A stretch of DNA of 64,000 nt from Haloplanus sp. XH21 (GTDB lineage Archaea; Halobacteriota; Halobacteria; Halobacteriales; Haloferacaceae). Both the position numbers and the translations under genes were made by a program. This document shows positions 13,867-57,026 of this stretch, piece after piece. Under the pieces are notes generated by a model. It did not search any database and was not told the DNA's origin. It was given only the letters and a program-made list of their open reading frames with translations. The stretch spans positions 1,860,001-1,924,000 of the forward strand of contig NZ_JALLPL010000001.1 of NCBI RefSeq assembly GCF_023276355.1. The letters are read 5' to 3'. Position 1 is the first letter of the stretch; each line of letters starts with the position of its first letter.

Positions 13867-14769
13867 ATGGCCATGCACGAGAGCATTCTCGACGCCATCG
13901 GCTCTCCGCTCGTCCGCATCGACTCCCCGCCGGAGACGACGGTGGCGGCGAAAATCGAGTCGAAAAACCCCGGTGGCTCCGCGAAGGACCGCCCAGCGAA
14001 GGCAATGGTCGAGGCGGCGGAGCGCGAGGGCGAACTCGAACCGGGCGACGCCATCGTCGAACCGACGAGCGGGAACACGGGCATCGGCCTTGCCGTCGTC
14101 GGCGCGGCCAAGGGCTACGACGTGACCGTCGTGATGCCCGAGTCGAAATCGCCGGAGCGGCGGGCGATCATGCGCGCCTACGGCGCCGACATCGAACTCG
14201 TCGACGGCGAGATGACCGAAGCGCGGGAGCGCGCCGACGAACTCGAGCGCGAGCAGGGAATGGTGCAGATGCACCAGTTCGAGAACCCCGCCAACCCCAA
14301 GGCGCATTACCGAACCACGGGCGAGGAGATCCTCGAACAGACCGACCGCCCCGTCGACGCGCTGGTCTGTGGCGTCGGCACCGGCGGCACCATCTCGGGG
14401 ACGGGCCGCCGGCTCAAGGAGACCTACCCCGATCTGACCGTCGTCGGCGTCCAGCCCGAATCGAACCAGTTTCTCACCGGCACGCCCGGCGATGACGATT
14501 TCCAGGGGATGGGTCCGGGCTTCATCGCCGAGAACGTCGACGTCGACCTCATCGACGACGTGGAGAGCGTCTCGCTTTCGGCCGCCGAGGAGGAGTGCCG
14601 GCGCCTCGCCCGCGAAGAGGGCATCCTCGTCGGGCAGTCGAGCGGCGCGTCGAGCCTCGGCGCGAAACGCGTCGCCGAGCGCCTCAGCGAAGTCGTCGAC
14701 GACCCGCTTGTCGTGACGGTGTTCTGGGACAGCGGCGAGCGGTACATGTCGACCGGGCTGTTCGACTGA
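13867..14769 (+). CDS. cysK: Cysteine synthase (O-acetylserine sulfhydrylase) or related PLP beta-family enzyme
   Basis: This fold-type II PLP enzyme would condense O-acetylserine (or O-phosphoserine) with sulfide to make cysteine. The PLP lysine lies in NPGGSAKDRPA, the substrate loop is PTSGNTGIGLA, the phosphate-binding loop is GVGTGGTISGTG and the C-terminal site is GQSSGAS. A second in-frame ATG at 13873 fits the ATTTAGG box at 13843-13849 slightly better (27 bp). The serine acetyltransferase partner is encoded at 53.3-54.2 kb. The TGA stop codon is followed directly by palindrome I, which was later split by an IS6-type unit. Confidence 0.9.
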   Translation: MAMHESILDAIGSPLVRIDSPPETTVAAKIESKNPGGSAKDRPAKAMVEAAEREGELEPGDAIVEPTSGNTGIGLAVVGAAKGYDVTVVMPESKSPERRAIMRAYGADIELVDGEMTEARERADELEREQGMVQMHQFENPANPKAHYRTTGEEILEQTDRPVDALVCGVGTGGTISGTGRRLKETYPDLTVVGVQPESNQFLTGTPGDDDFQGMGPGFIAENVDVDLIDDVESVSLSAAEEECRRLAREEGILVGQSSGASSLGAKRVAERLSEVVDDPLVVTVFWDSGERYMSTGLFD

Positions 14770-14780
14770 GACGGATCGTT
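14770..14780. repeat. Left fragment of stop-codon palindrome I
   Basis: GACGGATCGTT directly follows the cysK TGA. Joined to 15982-16047 it rebuilds a 77-bp family member. The last 8 bp (GGATCGTT, 14773-14780) are the target duplication of the IS6-type unit. Confidence 0.75.
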
Positions 14781-14905
14781 GGCTCTGTTGAAATCCTATT
14801 AGCGCGACACATACTTACTGAAACAGGCATCAGGTCGTATCTATGTGGCTGACTCGAATTGATCTTTGAGACGGGGGGTCGCGCTCGGAGTTGGTGAGGG
14901 AGATG

Positions 14906-15418
14906 TCACACCAACAGAACTATTCCGGCTATTAATGCGATGAAGGCCCCCCACGAAATCATGGCTCCCTTCCTTCCGCCAAGCTCGACAGCGACGATAC
15001 CAATAATACTCATCAGGACAACGGTCCACGTCTCTAAAGCACTCTGTTCTATTGCTCCTCCATTTTTACACTTATAGTATAGATACCCGGGGACGACTAA
15101 TCCAACGGGAAATGTAAGTAATGCGATGGCTCCAGCGCCCAACCATTGAAGTGGCGAATACTTATCAGTTAGCCCATAGTCTTTTGCCCTTATTTCCGCA
15201 GGTTTGGTTTCACCACAACTGGGGCACGCGTCATCCCCAACCGGAGTGCCACACTCCGGACAGTGTTCCCTCACGGTAGAACACGAGGGGCACAACCAAT
15301 CACCTTCGTCAAATTTTGTGTTGCAAGAAGAGCAGTGTTCGTCTATGATACCGCAATCCGGACATTTTAATCCGGACTCAATTTCAGTGCCGCAGTTCGG
15401 ACAGTATGTCGTACTCAT
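14906..15418 (-). CDS. Multi-zinc-ribbon membrane protein (transposon cargo)
   Basis: Three paired CxxC zinc-ribbon modules occupy residues about 5-75 (CPNCG...CPDCG, CSSCN...CPSCS, CPECG...CPSCG). A linker and three hydrophobic helices follow (about 90-170). It lies wholly within the IS6-type unit, directly downstream of a second zinc-ribbon gene. ATG 15418 is preferred over a TTG at 15427 that overlaps the upstream stop. The function is unknown; the zinc ribbons predict protein or nucleic-acid contacts at the membrane. Codon use is more A/T-rich than in the neighbouring chromosomal genes. Confidence 0.75.
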   Translation of the reverse strand: MSTTYCPNCGTEIESGLKCPDCGIIDEHCSSCNTKFDEGDWLCPSCSTVREHCPECGTPVGDDACPSCGETKPAEIRAKDYGLTDKYSPLQWLGAGAIALLTFPVGLVVPGYLYYKCKNGGAIEQSALETWTVVLMSIIGIVAVELGGRKGAMISWGAFIALIAGIVLLV

Positions 15419-15423
15419 TAGAA

Positions 15424-15777
15424 TCAATTAGTGAAGCTACTGAGCAGTTTCCCAAGTGCGTCAAAACTATCAACTTCTTTCACTTGGGCATTCCCGGGCA
15501 AAGCCGATATTTCTCCGGAGCCTGAGGAACTCGTCTCGATGTACTCAAGCCGTTCTGTGGGGTAAATTCTCTTCGAGCCATCCTCCATTCGGGCCCTGAT
15601 CCAGTTTCCACCCATTGATGGATAGCTGATACTCTTGCAGACGACAGGTTCCTCCTTTTCCCGAAGGTGGATCCGCGCCTCTTCTGTTGACTCAACACCT
15701 CCGACATCCGCACCACAATTACGACAAAAGTCCTCCGCATCTCCCACTTCACTGCCGCATTCTGGACACAGTGCCAT
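15424..15777 (-). CDS. Zinc-ribbon protein (transposon cargo)
   Basis: The 117-residue protein begins with a zinc ribbon (CPECGSEVGDAEDFCRNCG) followed by a compact domain of unknown type (SISYPSMGGNWIRARMEDGS). It is likely co-transcribed with the downstream zinc-ribbon membrane protein, separated by only 5 bp. ATG 15777 lies 27 bp from a TTTTATTACC box at 15799-15808, fitting a leaderless mRNA, so the cargo operon carries its own promoter inside the mobile unit. I do not recognise the C-terminal domain. Confidence 0.7.
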   Translation of the reverse strand: MALCPECGSEVGDAEDFCRNCGADVGGVESTEEARIHLREKEEPVVCKSISYPSMGGNWIRARMEDGSKRIYPTERLEYIETSSSGSGEISALPGNAQVKEVDSFDALGKLLSSFTN

Positions 15778-15981
15778 ACAGAAGCGGTTATTTCAGAGGT
15801 AATAAAACTGGGGACAGCGGTAACGTTCAGCCCAGCAGATTTTGTGAGACAGATCATAGCCGTCTCGACCTTTTGCTGCGGTCGCTCGCTTCGTTCGTTC
15901 GTGGTGAGTGGCTCGTCTGTACTGAGCGAACTCAGATCAGAATATGTCTCTTACTGAGGATTTCAACAGGTCCGGATCGTT

Positions 15982-16047
15982 GTAACTGTTTCCCGGTGGT
16001 TCACCGACCTCTCTTGGCGAATCATCGGTACCGACGTACGAACCGTC
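15982..16047. repeat. Right fragment of stop-codon palindrome I
   Basis: It continues the element begun after the cysK stop codon and contains GTAACTGTTTCCCGGTGGTT and a weaker right arm. The TGA at 16048-16050 matches the cysK TGA at 14767-14769, giving the family's 3-bp flanking duplication. The arms are more diverged than in other copies. Confidence 0.7.
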
Positions 16048-16052
16048 TGAGG

Positions 16053-28210: not shown

Positions 28211-28290
28211 TACGGTTTATTGGAAGTCATCACGGGTGGACCGCTGGGACGGGCCAGCGAACCACCGGTGAACGGTTACAATCATCCGTA
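28211..28290. repeat. Stop-codon palindrome F (80 bp)
   Basis: The arms begin TACGGTTTATTGGAAGTCAT and, from the other end, TACGGATGATTGTAACCGTT. The inner stem is built on GGTGG...CGCTGG/CCAGCG...CCACC. It is flanked by TCA at 28208-28210 and TCA at 28291-28293; the right TCA is the TGA stop of the NADH dehydrogenase-like gene on the minus strand. It lies between convergent genes. Confidence 0.85.
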
Positions 28291-29421
28291 TCAGAGTTCC
28301 TCGCGAGCGAGTTCGACCACACGCGTGATCTCACCGACGGAGGAGAGGTGGCCGGCGCCGACGGTGGCTTTCATCGCTCGGGCCGGCGCGCCCGTGAACA
28401 CCTTTGGGCCGACCGTGGCGACGGCATCGTCGCCGACGGAGACGATCCAGCCCGGCGCGTCGAACCGAAACGGGTCGAGACGCGGGGCGAACCCGTCGGT
28501 CTCGTCGTCGGCTTCCAGCGCGTGTCGCACGAGGCGACCGAGGTTCGTGGCGACGGTCCCTGCCTCGCGGATGGCGGCCGCGGCACTCGCGGGCACGGCG
28601 TCGCCGTCGGCGTCGACGACGCGAGCGGCGTCGCCGACCGCGAAGGTGCGGTCGTCGAGTCGGAGGTCGCCGCGCACGACGGGGCGGTCACCGCCGAGGG
28701 CGTCCGATCCGCGGATGCCGCCCGTCCAGACGAACGTGTCGTAGGGAACGCCGCTGTCGTCGAGTTCGACGGCCTCGCCGGTCGCCCCGGTCACGCGCGC
28801 ATCGGTTCGGACATCGACGCCGGCGGCGACGAGCGCGTCGCGGACGGCGGTCTGGAACGCCTCGGGGAAGGCGGGCGCGACCGAGTCCTGGCGTTCGAGC
28901 AGCGTCACGTCCACGTCGGCGTCGCGTTCGTCGGCGAGCGCCGCGAGTTCGCCGGCGACCTGGACGCCCGAGAGGCCGGCCCCGCCGACGACGATCCGAC
29001 CGTCGCGCTCGCAGGTGTCGAGGGCGTCCTCACGGATTTCCCGGGCGTGGTCGAGGCGTTTCAGCGGCAGGCCGTGGTCGGCGACGCCGGGGAGGTCGTA
29101 GAACGCCGTCTCGGCGCCGAGGCAGACCGCGGCGTAGTCGTAGTCGAGGACGCCGTCGGCGAGGCGGACGCGCCGGGCGTCGCGGTCGATACCCTCGACG
29201 CGGGTCGTGCGGACCGTCGCGCGGTCGAGCGCGTCGTCGAGGGGGACGGTGATGGCGTCGGCCACGGCGGGACGGCGGACGACGCGGTGGAGTTCGTGCT
29301 GCACGAGATGGGTGTCGGACTCGTCGACGACGACGATGTCGGCGGCGTCGGGGAGTCGAGATTCGAGGCGGTGAGCGAGAGTCAAGCCGGCGTAGCCGGC
29401 GCCGAGAACGACGACGCGCAT
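28291..29421 (-). CDS. NAD(P)/FAD-dependent oxidoreductase, NDH-2-like
   Basis: It has two dinucleotide-binding folds: FAD site MRVVVLGAGYAGLTLAHRL at the N-terminus and NAD(P) site IVVGGAGLSGVQVAGEL in the middle, with the FAD-closing motif RTFAVGDAARV. The pattern matches type II NADH:quinone dehydrogenases and sulfide:quinone reductases. The catalytic cysteines of SQR are not seen, so NDH-2-like is preferred. ATG 29421 is chosen, since eight upstream residues precede the Rossmann start. The TGA stop abuts palindrome F. Confidence 0.85.
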   Translation of the reverse strand: MRVVVLGAGYAGLTLAHRLESRLPDAADIVVVDESDTHLVQHELHRVVRRPAVADAITVPLDDALDRATVRTTRVEGIDRDARRVRLADGVLDYDYAAVCLGAETAFYDLPGVADHGLPLKRLDHAREIREDALDTCERDGRIVVGGAGLSGVQVAGELAALADERDADVDVTLLERQDSVAPAFPEAFQTAVRDALVAAGVDVRTDARVTGATGEAVELDDSGVPYDTFVWTGGIRGSDALGGDRPVVRGDLRLDDRTFAVGDAARVVDADGDAVPASAAAAIREAGTVATNLGRLVRHALEADDETDGFAPRLDPFRFDAPGWIVSVGDDAVATVGPKVFTGAPARAMKATVGAGHLSSVGEITRVVELAREEL

Positions 29422-48520: not shown

Positions 48521-48670
48521 AAGTCATTGCACAGCTGATCGAAGAACGGCGTACGAGTGGCTGTGCAAACAGTTTCATACGGTTTATTGTAAGTCATTAC
48601 CGGTGGTTCGCTGGGACGGTCCAGCGAACCACCGGTAAACAGTTACAGTAATCCGTATCAATCGCTACTA
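48508..48670. repeat. Stop-codon palindrome C (80 bp), interrupted by palindrome B
   Basis: The left arm TAGTAACGATTGAAAGTCAT (from 48508) and inner stem GCACAGC/GCTGTGC run to TTTCA at 48577. Palindrome B follows, and the outer right arm resumes at 48661-48670 (ATCGCTACTA). Without B and one TCA, C is 80 bp like its relatives. Its two arms encode the final residues and stop codons of both convergent genes: D-S-N-D-stop of TmcA and Y-S-S-D-stop of GNAT. Flanks are CGA and TAG, so no duplication is kept. Confidence 0.8.
48578..48657. repeat. Stop-codon palindrome B (80 bp), inserted in palindrome C
   Basis: The arms are TACGGTTTATTGTAAGTCAT and, from the other end, TACGGATTACTGTAACTGTT. The inner stem ACCGGTGGTTCGCTGG pairs perfectly with its partner. 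It is flanked by TCA at 48575-48577 and TCA at 48658-48660; the latter is the GNAT stop codon (TGA) on the minus strand. It is the best-preserved copy and shows nested insertion. Confidence 0.9.
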
Positions 48671-56946: not shown

Positions 56947-57026
56947 TACGGTTTATTGTAAGTCAGTACCGGTGGGTCGCTGGACCGCCTCCGCGAACCA
57001 CCGGTAAACAGTTACAATAATCCGTA
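56947..57026. repeat. Stop-codon palindrome G (80 bp)
   Basis: The arms are TACGGTTTATTGTAAGTCAG and, from the other end, TACGGATTATTGTAACTGTT, with inner stem ACCGGTGG/CCACCGGT. It is flanked by TGA at 56944-56946 (the FAH stop codon) and TGA at 57027-57029. The direct and not inverted flank argues for a target duplication. Confidence 0.9.

Follow-up and report, generated by a model that had tools for sequence, protein, structure and literature searches.

To our knowledge, gene cassettes that lack a transposase have been reported for a few bacterial IS, with few descriptions from archaea. Mobile insertion cassettes (MICs), as defined in PMC3129680, carry their cargo between IS ends, have no transposase and are presumed to move in trans; an example, MIC231 of Bacillus cereus, is cited in a passage of PMC6542083. 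In haloarchaea, the MITEs described from Haloquadratum are mostly short and non-coding, an ORF-bearing ISH2 type being the exception (PMC3119063), and single passenger genes have been noted in transposons (PMC10544981).

Here we analysed a 64,000-nucleotide stretch of DNA from Haloplanus sp. XH21 (the window), which contains a unit with IS-family ends, a target duplication, no transposase and a cargo unrelated to transposition. The unit fits the definition of a MIC, with movement in trans presumed. Unlike MICs, however, it is archaeal, its ends are of IS5 type and belong to two distinct, conserved classes (A and B), and units on this one chassis hold dozens of unrelated cargoes. With ISHla2-type IS5 elements and tIS (PMC3129680, PMC7986276) it shares the 17-bp ends, the B end and the 8-bp duplication, and autonomous ISHla2-type copies carry passengers, as tIS do; in contrast to ISHla2-type elements, it lacks a transposase and bears an A end instead of a T end. 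Haloarchaeal MITEs are likewise transposase-free, with transposon-related ends and a target duplication, but the unit, with its length of 1,193 bp and its two genes, is neither short nor non-coding. IS6 elements resemble it in their GG tips, CTGTTG-like motif and 8-bp duplication, whereas their transposase is of PF13610 type and that of the unit's presumed partner is a DDE_Tnp_1 enzyme of the IS5 family.

Integron cassettes carry an attC site and are inserted by an integrase without target duplication. They are alike in outline, as single genes that can be exchanged on a shared mobile format, but the units described here have inverted ends, target duplications and a DDE transposase, with no integrase known to be involved, and the inverted ends together with the 8-bp duplication speak against the window unit being an integron cassette. 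In the literature that we covered, which is incomplete, we found no description of an asymmetric, cargo-diverse IS5-type cassette family, and haloarchaea seem to hold a large, apparently undescribed population of cassettes that would borrow the transposase of one IS5-type IS.

Structure, insertion site and cargo of the unit

The unit has the layout B-cargo-A, with B at the left and A at the right (Table 1). Its left 17-bp end (14781-14797, GGCTCTGTTGAAATCCT) and its right one (15957-15973, GGACCTGTTGAAATCCT when read inwards) are identical at 15 of 17 positions, including a perfect 13-bp core, and the 8-bp duplication GGATCGTT is perfect on both sides, confirming the inverted ends and duplication around 1,193 bp that had been read from the sequence originally. 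The interval then given, 14767-16050, comprises the unit plus the palindrome into which it is inserted. Two end matches were present in the window versus 0.16 expected, and an 8/8 duplication was found at the true position in 53 of 248 end pairs from related loci but in none of the 248 when the compared windows were shifted by 4 to 40 bp as a control, so that chance is ruled out. GC content falls from ~0.69 outside to ~0.50 inside the unit, which is flanked by convergent genes. Neither tblastn with an IS5 transposase nor Pfam revealed a transposase or a degenerate remnant of one inside, in line with the original prediction of a gene-carrying, non-autonomous unit, of which the ends, the duplication and the two genes were also verified.

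Table 1 Features of the unit and its surroundings, in window coordinates
Feature	Position	Strand	Basis or context
Transposon unit without transposase, 1,193 bp	14781-15973		Between cysK and the DUF5804 gene
Left 8-bp target duplication, GGATCGTT	14773..14780		Sequence
Right 8-bp target duplication, GGATCGTT	15974..15981		Sequence
B-class end	14781..14850	+	Groups with other B ends; conservation in the consensus up to ~70 bp
A-class end	15917..15973	-	Groups with other A ends; conservation in the consensus up to ~57 bp
Cargo gene 1, 117-aa protein, one zinc ribbon	15424..15777	-	ORF; Pfam Zn_Ribbon_1, 5.6e-7; partner homologue in genome G109
Cargo gene 2, 170-aa protein, zinc ribbon and membrane C-terminus	14906..15418	-	ORF; Pfam DZR, 4.3e-8; haloarchaeal homologues
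TATA-like TTTTATTA, putative leaderless promoter	15800..15807	-	Sequence reading
Host palindromic repeat split by the insertion	14766..16051 (arms 14766-14780 and 15982-16051)		Empty-site fold; arm match

Joining the flanks restores an imperfect palindrome of ~85 bp, as had been anticipated, with arms (CTGAGACGGATCGT...ACGAACCGTCTGAG) that match at 12 of 14 positions and a restored empty site that folds at -39.1 kcal/mol over 104 nt. The palindrome belongs to a repeat family for which 38 matches were found in this genome at E <= 0.001, several of them full-length at 71-76% identity. Further palindromic intergenic repeat copies lie in the window at 48575-48660, 56995-57025 and 28259-28294, and related copies are present in congeners. 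Downstream of cysK, all 11 other Haloplanus genomes examined are free of the insert, the zinc-ribbon genes included, and their cysK and DUF5804 genes are less than ~100 bp apart; the palindrome is also missing there, and the pre-insertion site is a reconstruction from the flanks. Because the congeners lack the repeat at this site, the palindrome would have arrived before the cassette in this lineage. The position of the unit inside a palindromic repeat recalls the Haloquadratum mobile elements, which tend to target other mobile elements (PMC3119063).

Cargo gene 1 is followed by cargo gene 2 on the same strand after a gap of 5 nt, and the TATA-like motif, 23-30 nt upstream of the ATG of gene 1, has a position compatible with a leaderless promoter; the two genes look as if they form an operon that encodes small zinc-ribbon proteins, of which one is membrane-anchored. 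In the aligned set, relatives of the 170-aa protein from other haloarchaea are 38-56% identical, mostly aligning over the C-terminal part with its two helices; some of them also have zinc ribbons. A genome-contig search with this protein returned no relatives. In genome G109, a zinc-ribbon/membrane protein has as its neighbour a relative that is 39-44% identical to the 117-aa protein, and ends of the window-unit type are absent from that gene pair. Nor did we find these transposon ends near the homologues of the 170-aa protein; none of the cargo homologue loci lies inside such ends. Since the related genes sit without the ends, the zinc-ribbon pair, which resembles ordinary haloarchaeal genes, looks like an existing haloarchaeal module captured by the cassette. 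A PDB sequence search gave no matches for either protein. AlphaFold models had a mean pLDDT of 41 for the 117-aa protein (two-sequence input), too low to use, and a pLDDT of 70 for the 170-aa protein, with a zinc-ribbon part and long helices. Tentatively, the cargo would most likely provide a dispensable accessory function drawn from the haloarchaeal gene pool.

Related units and their end classes

The exact end core occurs in five copies in this genome, versus none for the reversed pattern. Among 170 genomes of the family, 135 contain the end pattern GGNNCTGTTGAAATCCT and none contains a control pattern. From 60 fetched regions and from transposase loci we collected 73 distinct units with an end pair and a duplication; with near-duplicates removed, there were 43 units of at least 290 bp without a transposase and 17 with one. 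The full list of duplication-verified transposase units has 18 entries, from 1,195 to 3,686 bp, none of which is a bare IS (~0.93 kb expected); a passenger ORF is present in 17, the exception having a second, distant transposase. Transposase-free units carry a luciferase-like monooxygenase, acyl-CoA dehydrogenase, GNAT, BrkB/YihY, regulators, HalOD1 proteins and small membrane proteins; the 43 sampled cargo proteins show no defence enrichment. Apart from a few matches that were short or weak, cargo matched only among copies of the same unit and among nested units, and no cargo was common to transposase-bearing and transposase-free units.

Several further observations were made in this collection. 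A B-A cassette (L303, 2083-3430) carries what by eye are a TrmB/HTH-like and a PIN-domain-like protein, the most toxin-antitoxin-like cargo seen, and a transposase unit with multi-gene metabolic cargo (L279, 3306-6581) has two large passengers, by eye a 408-aa lipoprotein like an iron-transport binding protein and a 298-aa FAD-type oxidoreductase. A 125-bp MITE class (L019, L028, L029, L031, L037) likewise has these 17-bp ends, with perfect duplications of 8 bp. Viral contigs gave 112 end-pattern matches, with contig ids that do not identify haloviruses, and the apparent double ends at L317 are explained by an overlap in the assembly, which is marked by N.

The two ends of a unit are of different kinds. 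In the main subfamily, conservation extends to ~57 bp in A ends (...CCTCAgnAnGTGAtAnaTTCTGncCCgGttGcGGTCAgTACAG) and to ~70 bp in B ends (...CCTATTcTTCAGAcAtaTtntngnCTGAAACAGCcGgTcG), and is near zero beyond these points. Transposase-free units pair as A-B in 24 cases (plus 2 with a less clear A) and as A'-B' in 13, with a few unclassified and no B-B pair. Most transposase units combine a B end with a T end, in which the transposase ATG lies at nt 53; A ends were seen only in transposase-free units, and T and A ends, alike over the first ~33 bp, differ beyond ~35 bp. As the class labels were given after clustering, we performed a separate, label-independent similarity test, in which the score was 2.7 for ends within a unit, 6.0 for random ends of different units and 28.0 for the best end in another unit. 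An automatic two-way split likewise placed all 26 ends of the smaller class (B) opposite an end of the other class (expected 18.1), which was reached in 64 of 20,000 shuffles. The main cargo ORF runs from A towards B in 21 units and in the opposite sense in 16, so the chassis imposes no cargo direction. The second subfamily, A'/B' (L274, L275, L276, L284, L289, L299 and others), has a hairpin-like GTGCTGAATACAGAG...ATTCAGCAC; genome G007 has 19 ends of this type, yet no ISHla2-type transposase at E <= 1e-80.

Related units occupy different sites in other genomes: a transposase-free unit of 373/374 bp is present at two sites whose duplications differ (82% identity), and the copies of a 1,463-bp unit with transposase and passenger, at two sites in two genera, are 97% identical. 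In the genome studied here, the matching transposase is only a remnant between ends (C2:86923-87528, left end of T type); intact IS5 relatives are 35-46% identical. With the matching transposase reduced to a remnant, the cassette is probably immobile here now; several congeners (G068, G069, G071, G074, G076) have a copy of full or near-identical length. Units with A- and B-type ends also lie at C2:88662-89312 and, with a perfect duplication (ACTCAGGA), at C2:93908-94570; together with the T-type remnant they form a cluster on this genome's second contig (L331, G000:C2:85000-97000), near an IS5 element at 100141-100953. Elsewhere in this genome, a solo A-class end precedes a small membrane-protein ORF (L001, G000:C1:1712011), where we found no convincing opposite end, and a sister IS5 element (L165, L166), 940 bp long with ends GGCTGTGTTGAATCGC and no room for a passenger, has a 41% identical transposase and, in one copy, the duplication CATCAAAC.

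Transposase family and alternative explanations

Elements bounded by the same ends and 8-bp duplications encode a 273-aa DDE transposase (Pfam DDE_Tnp_1) that scores 208-218 bits against NF033579 (cut-off 140; E about 1e-61 to 1e-64), to close relatives of which NCBI gives the name 'IS5-like element ISHla2 family transposase', and all transposases found between these ends belong to the IS5 family. Eight IS6-type (PF13610) transposase loci fetched from this genome showed no pair of these ends, only one unpaired site with 4 mismatches, and one IS6-type IS of this genome has different ends (GGCGGTGTTCAGATAA). Because the elements that share the ends encode an IS5 transposase and the IS6 loci lack paired ends, the end family is IS5, not IS6 as originally predicted; a full-length relative with the same 17-bp ends was found, but it is an ISHla2-type IS5 element. 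An IS6 element that lost its transposase, gained the zinc-ribbon genes and is moved by an IS6 transposase would be compatible with the 8-bp duplication, the GG...CTGTTG ends and the presence of IS6-type transposases in this genome, and the GG tip and cTGTt motif of IS6 ends (PMC7986276) probably explain the misassignment. Both the duplication and the GG-tipped ends of 15-20 bp, however, also occur in this IS5 group and do not discriminate, and with IS6 membership contradicted by the IS5 transposases and the different IS6 ends, we consider this explanation extremely improbable. The unit itself encodes no IS5 transposase and is not an autonomous ISHla2-type member.

Another possibility is that the A-B units are decayed T-B transposons, from which the transposase was deleted and in which the passenger was kept, without a separate chassis. 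Transposase units always carry passengers, and the start of the T end is like that of A, which speaks for such decay; against it, A ends stay conserved well past the point at which they part from T, and the two kinds of unit have no cargo in common, so that we regard decay as unlikely. The persistence of the cassette might instead be due to its cargo, if the zinc-ribbon pair were an addiction or virus-defence module, as was also suggested originally. A pair of short neighbouring genes, one of which encodes a membrane protein with a zinc ribbon, would suit such a module, and the passenger of one haloarchaeal transposon has been put forward as a candidate gene for virus exclusion (PMC10544981). 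PADLOC, however, matched neither protein, PHROGs lent no support to a defence cargo, homologues sit at ordinary sites outside these ends, and the cargo across units is functionally mixed, with metabolic, regulatory and membrane proteins; a defence or addiction role is very unlikely.

Proposed cassette movement and gene exchange in haloarchaea

We conclude that the window unit is very probably a mobile insertion cassette with A and B ends of ISHla2 type, moved in trans by an ISHla2-type transposase. In this mechanism, passenger genes are enclosed by one A and one B end in the place of the transposase; an autonomous element of the form T-transposase-passenger-B would supply the ISHla2-type DDE enzyme, which would recognise A and B ends in trans and, on moving the cassette, leave the 8-bp duplication. 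The 17 bp common to all these ends, together with an inner motif that is similar, suggest binding of this transposase to A ends. It is conceivable, if doubtful, that these cassettes amount to a haloarchaeal gene-shuttling system on an IS5-family transposase, in which a long-lived A-B chassis freely exchanges its cargo alongside passenger-bearing T-B elements, as a counterpart of integron cassettes with a specific swap of cargo between fixed ends.

One IS5-type end is found in four fifths of the sampled genomes of the family, around dozens of unrelated genes. With its A, B and T ends, the transposon system can be tested directly, and the ends are a simple marker by which to find mobile accessory genes; if the transposase moves A-B units, the cassettes would be an overlooked route of single-gene exchange in haloarchaea.
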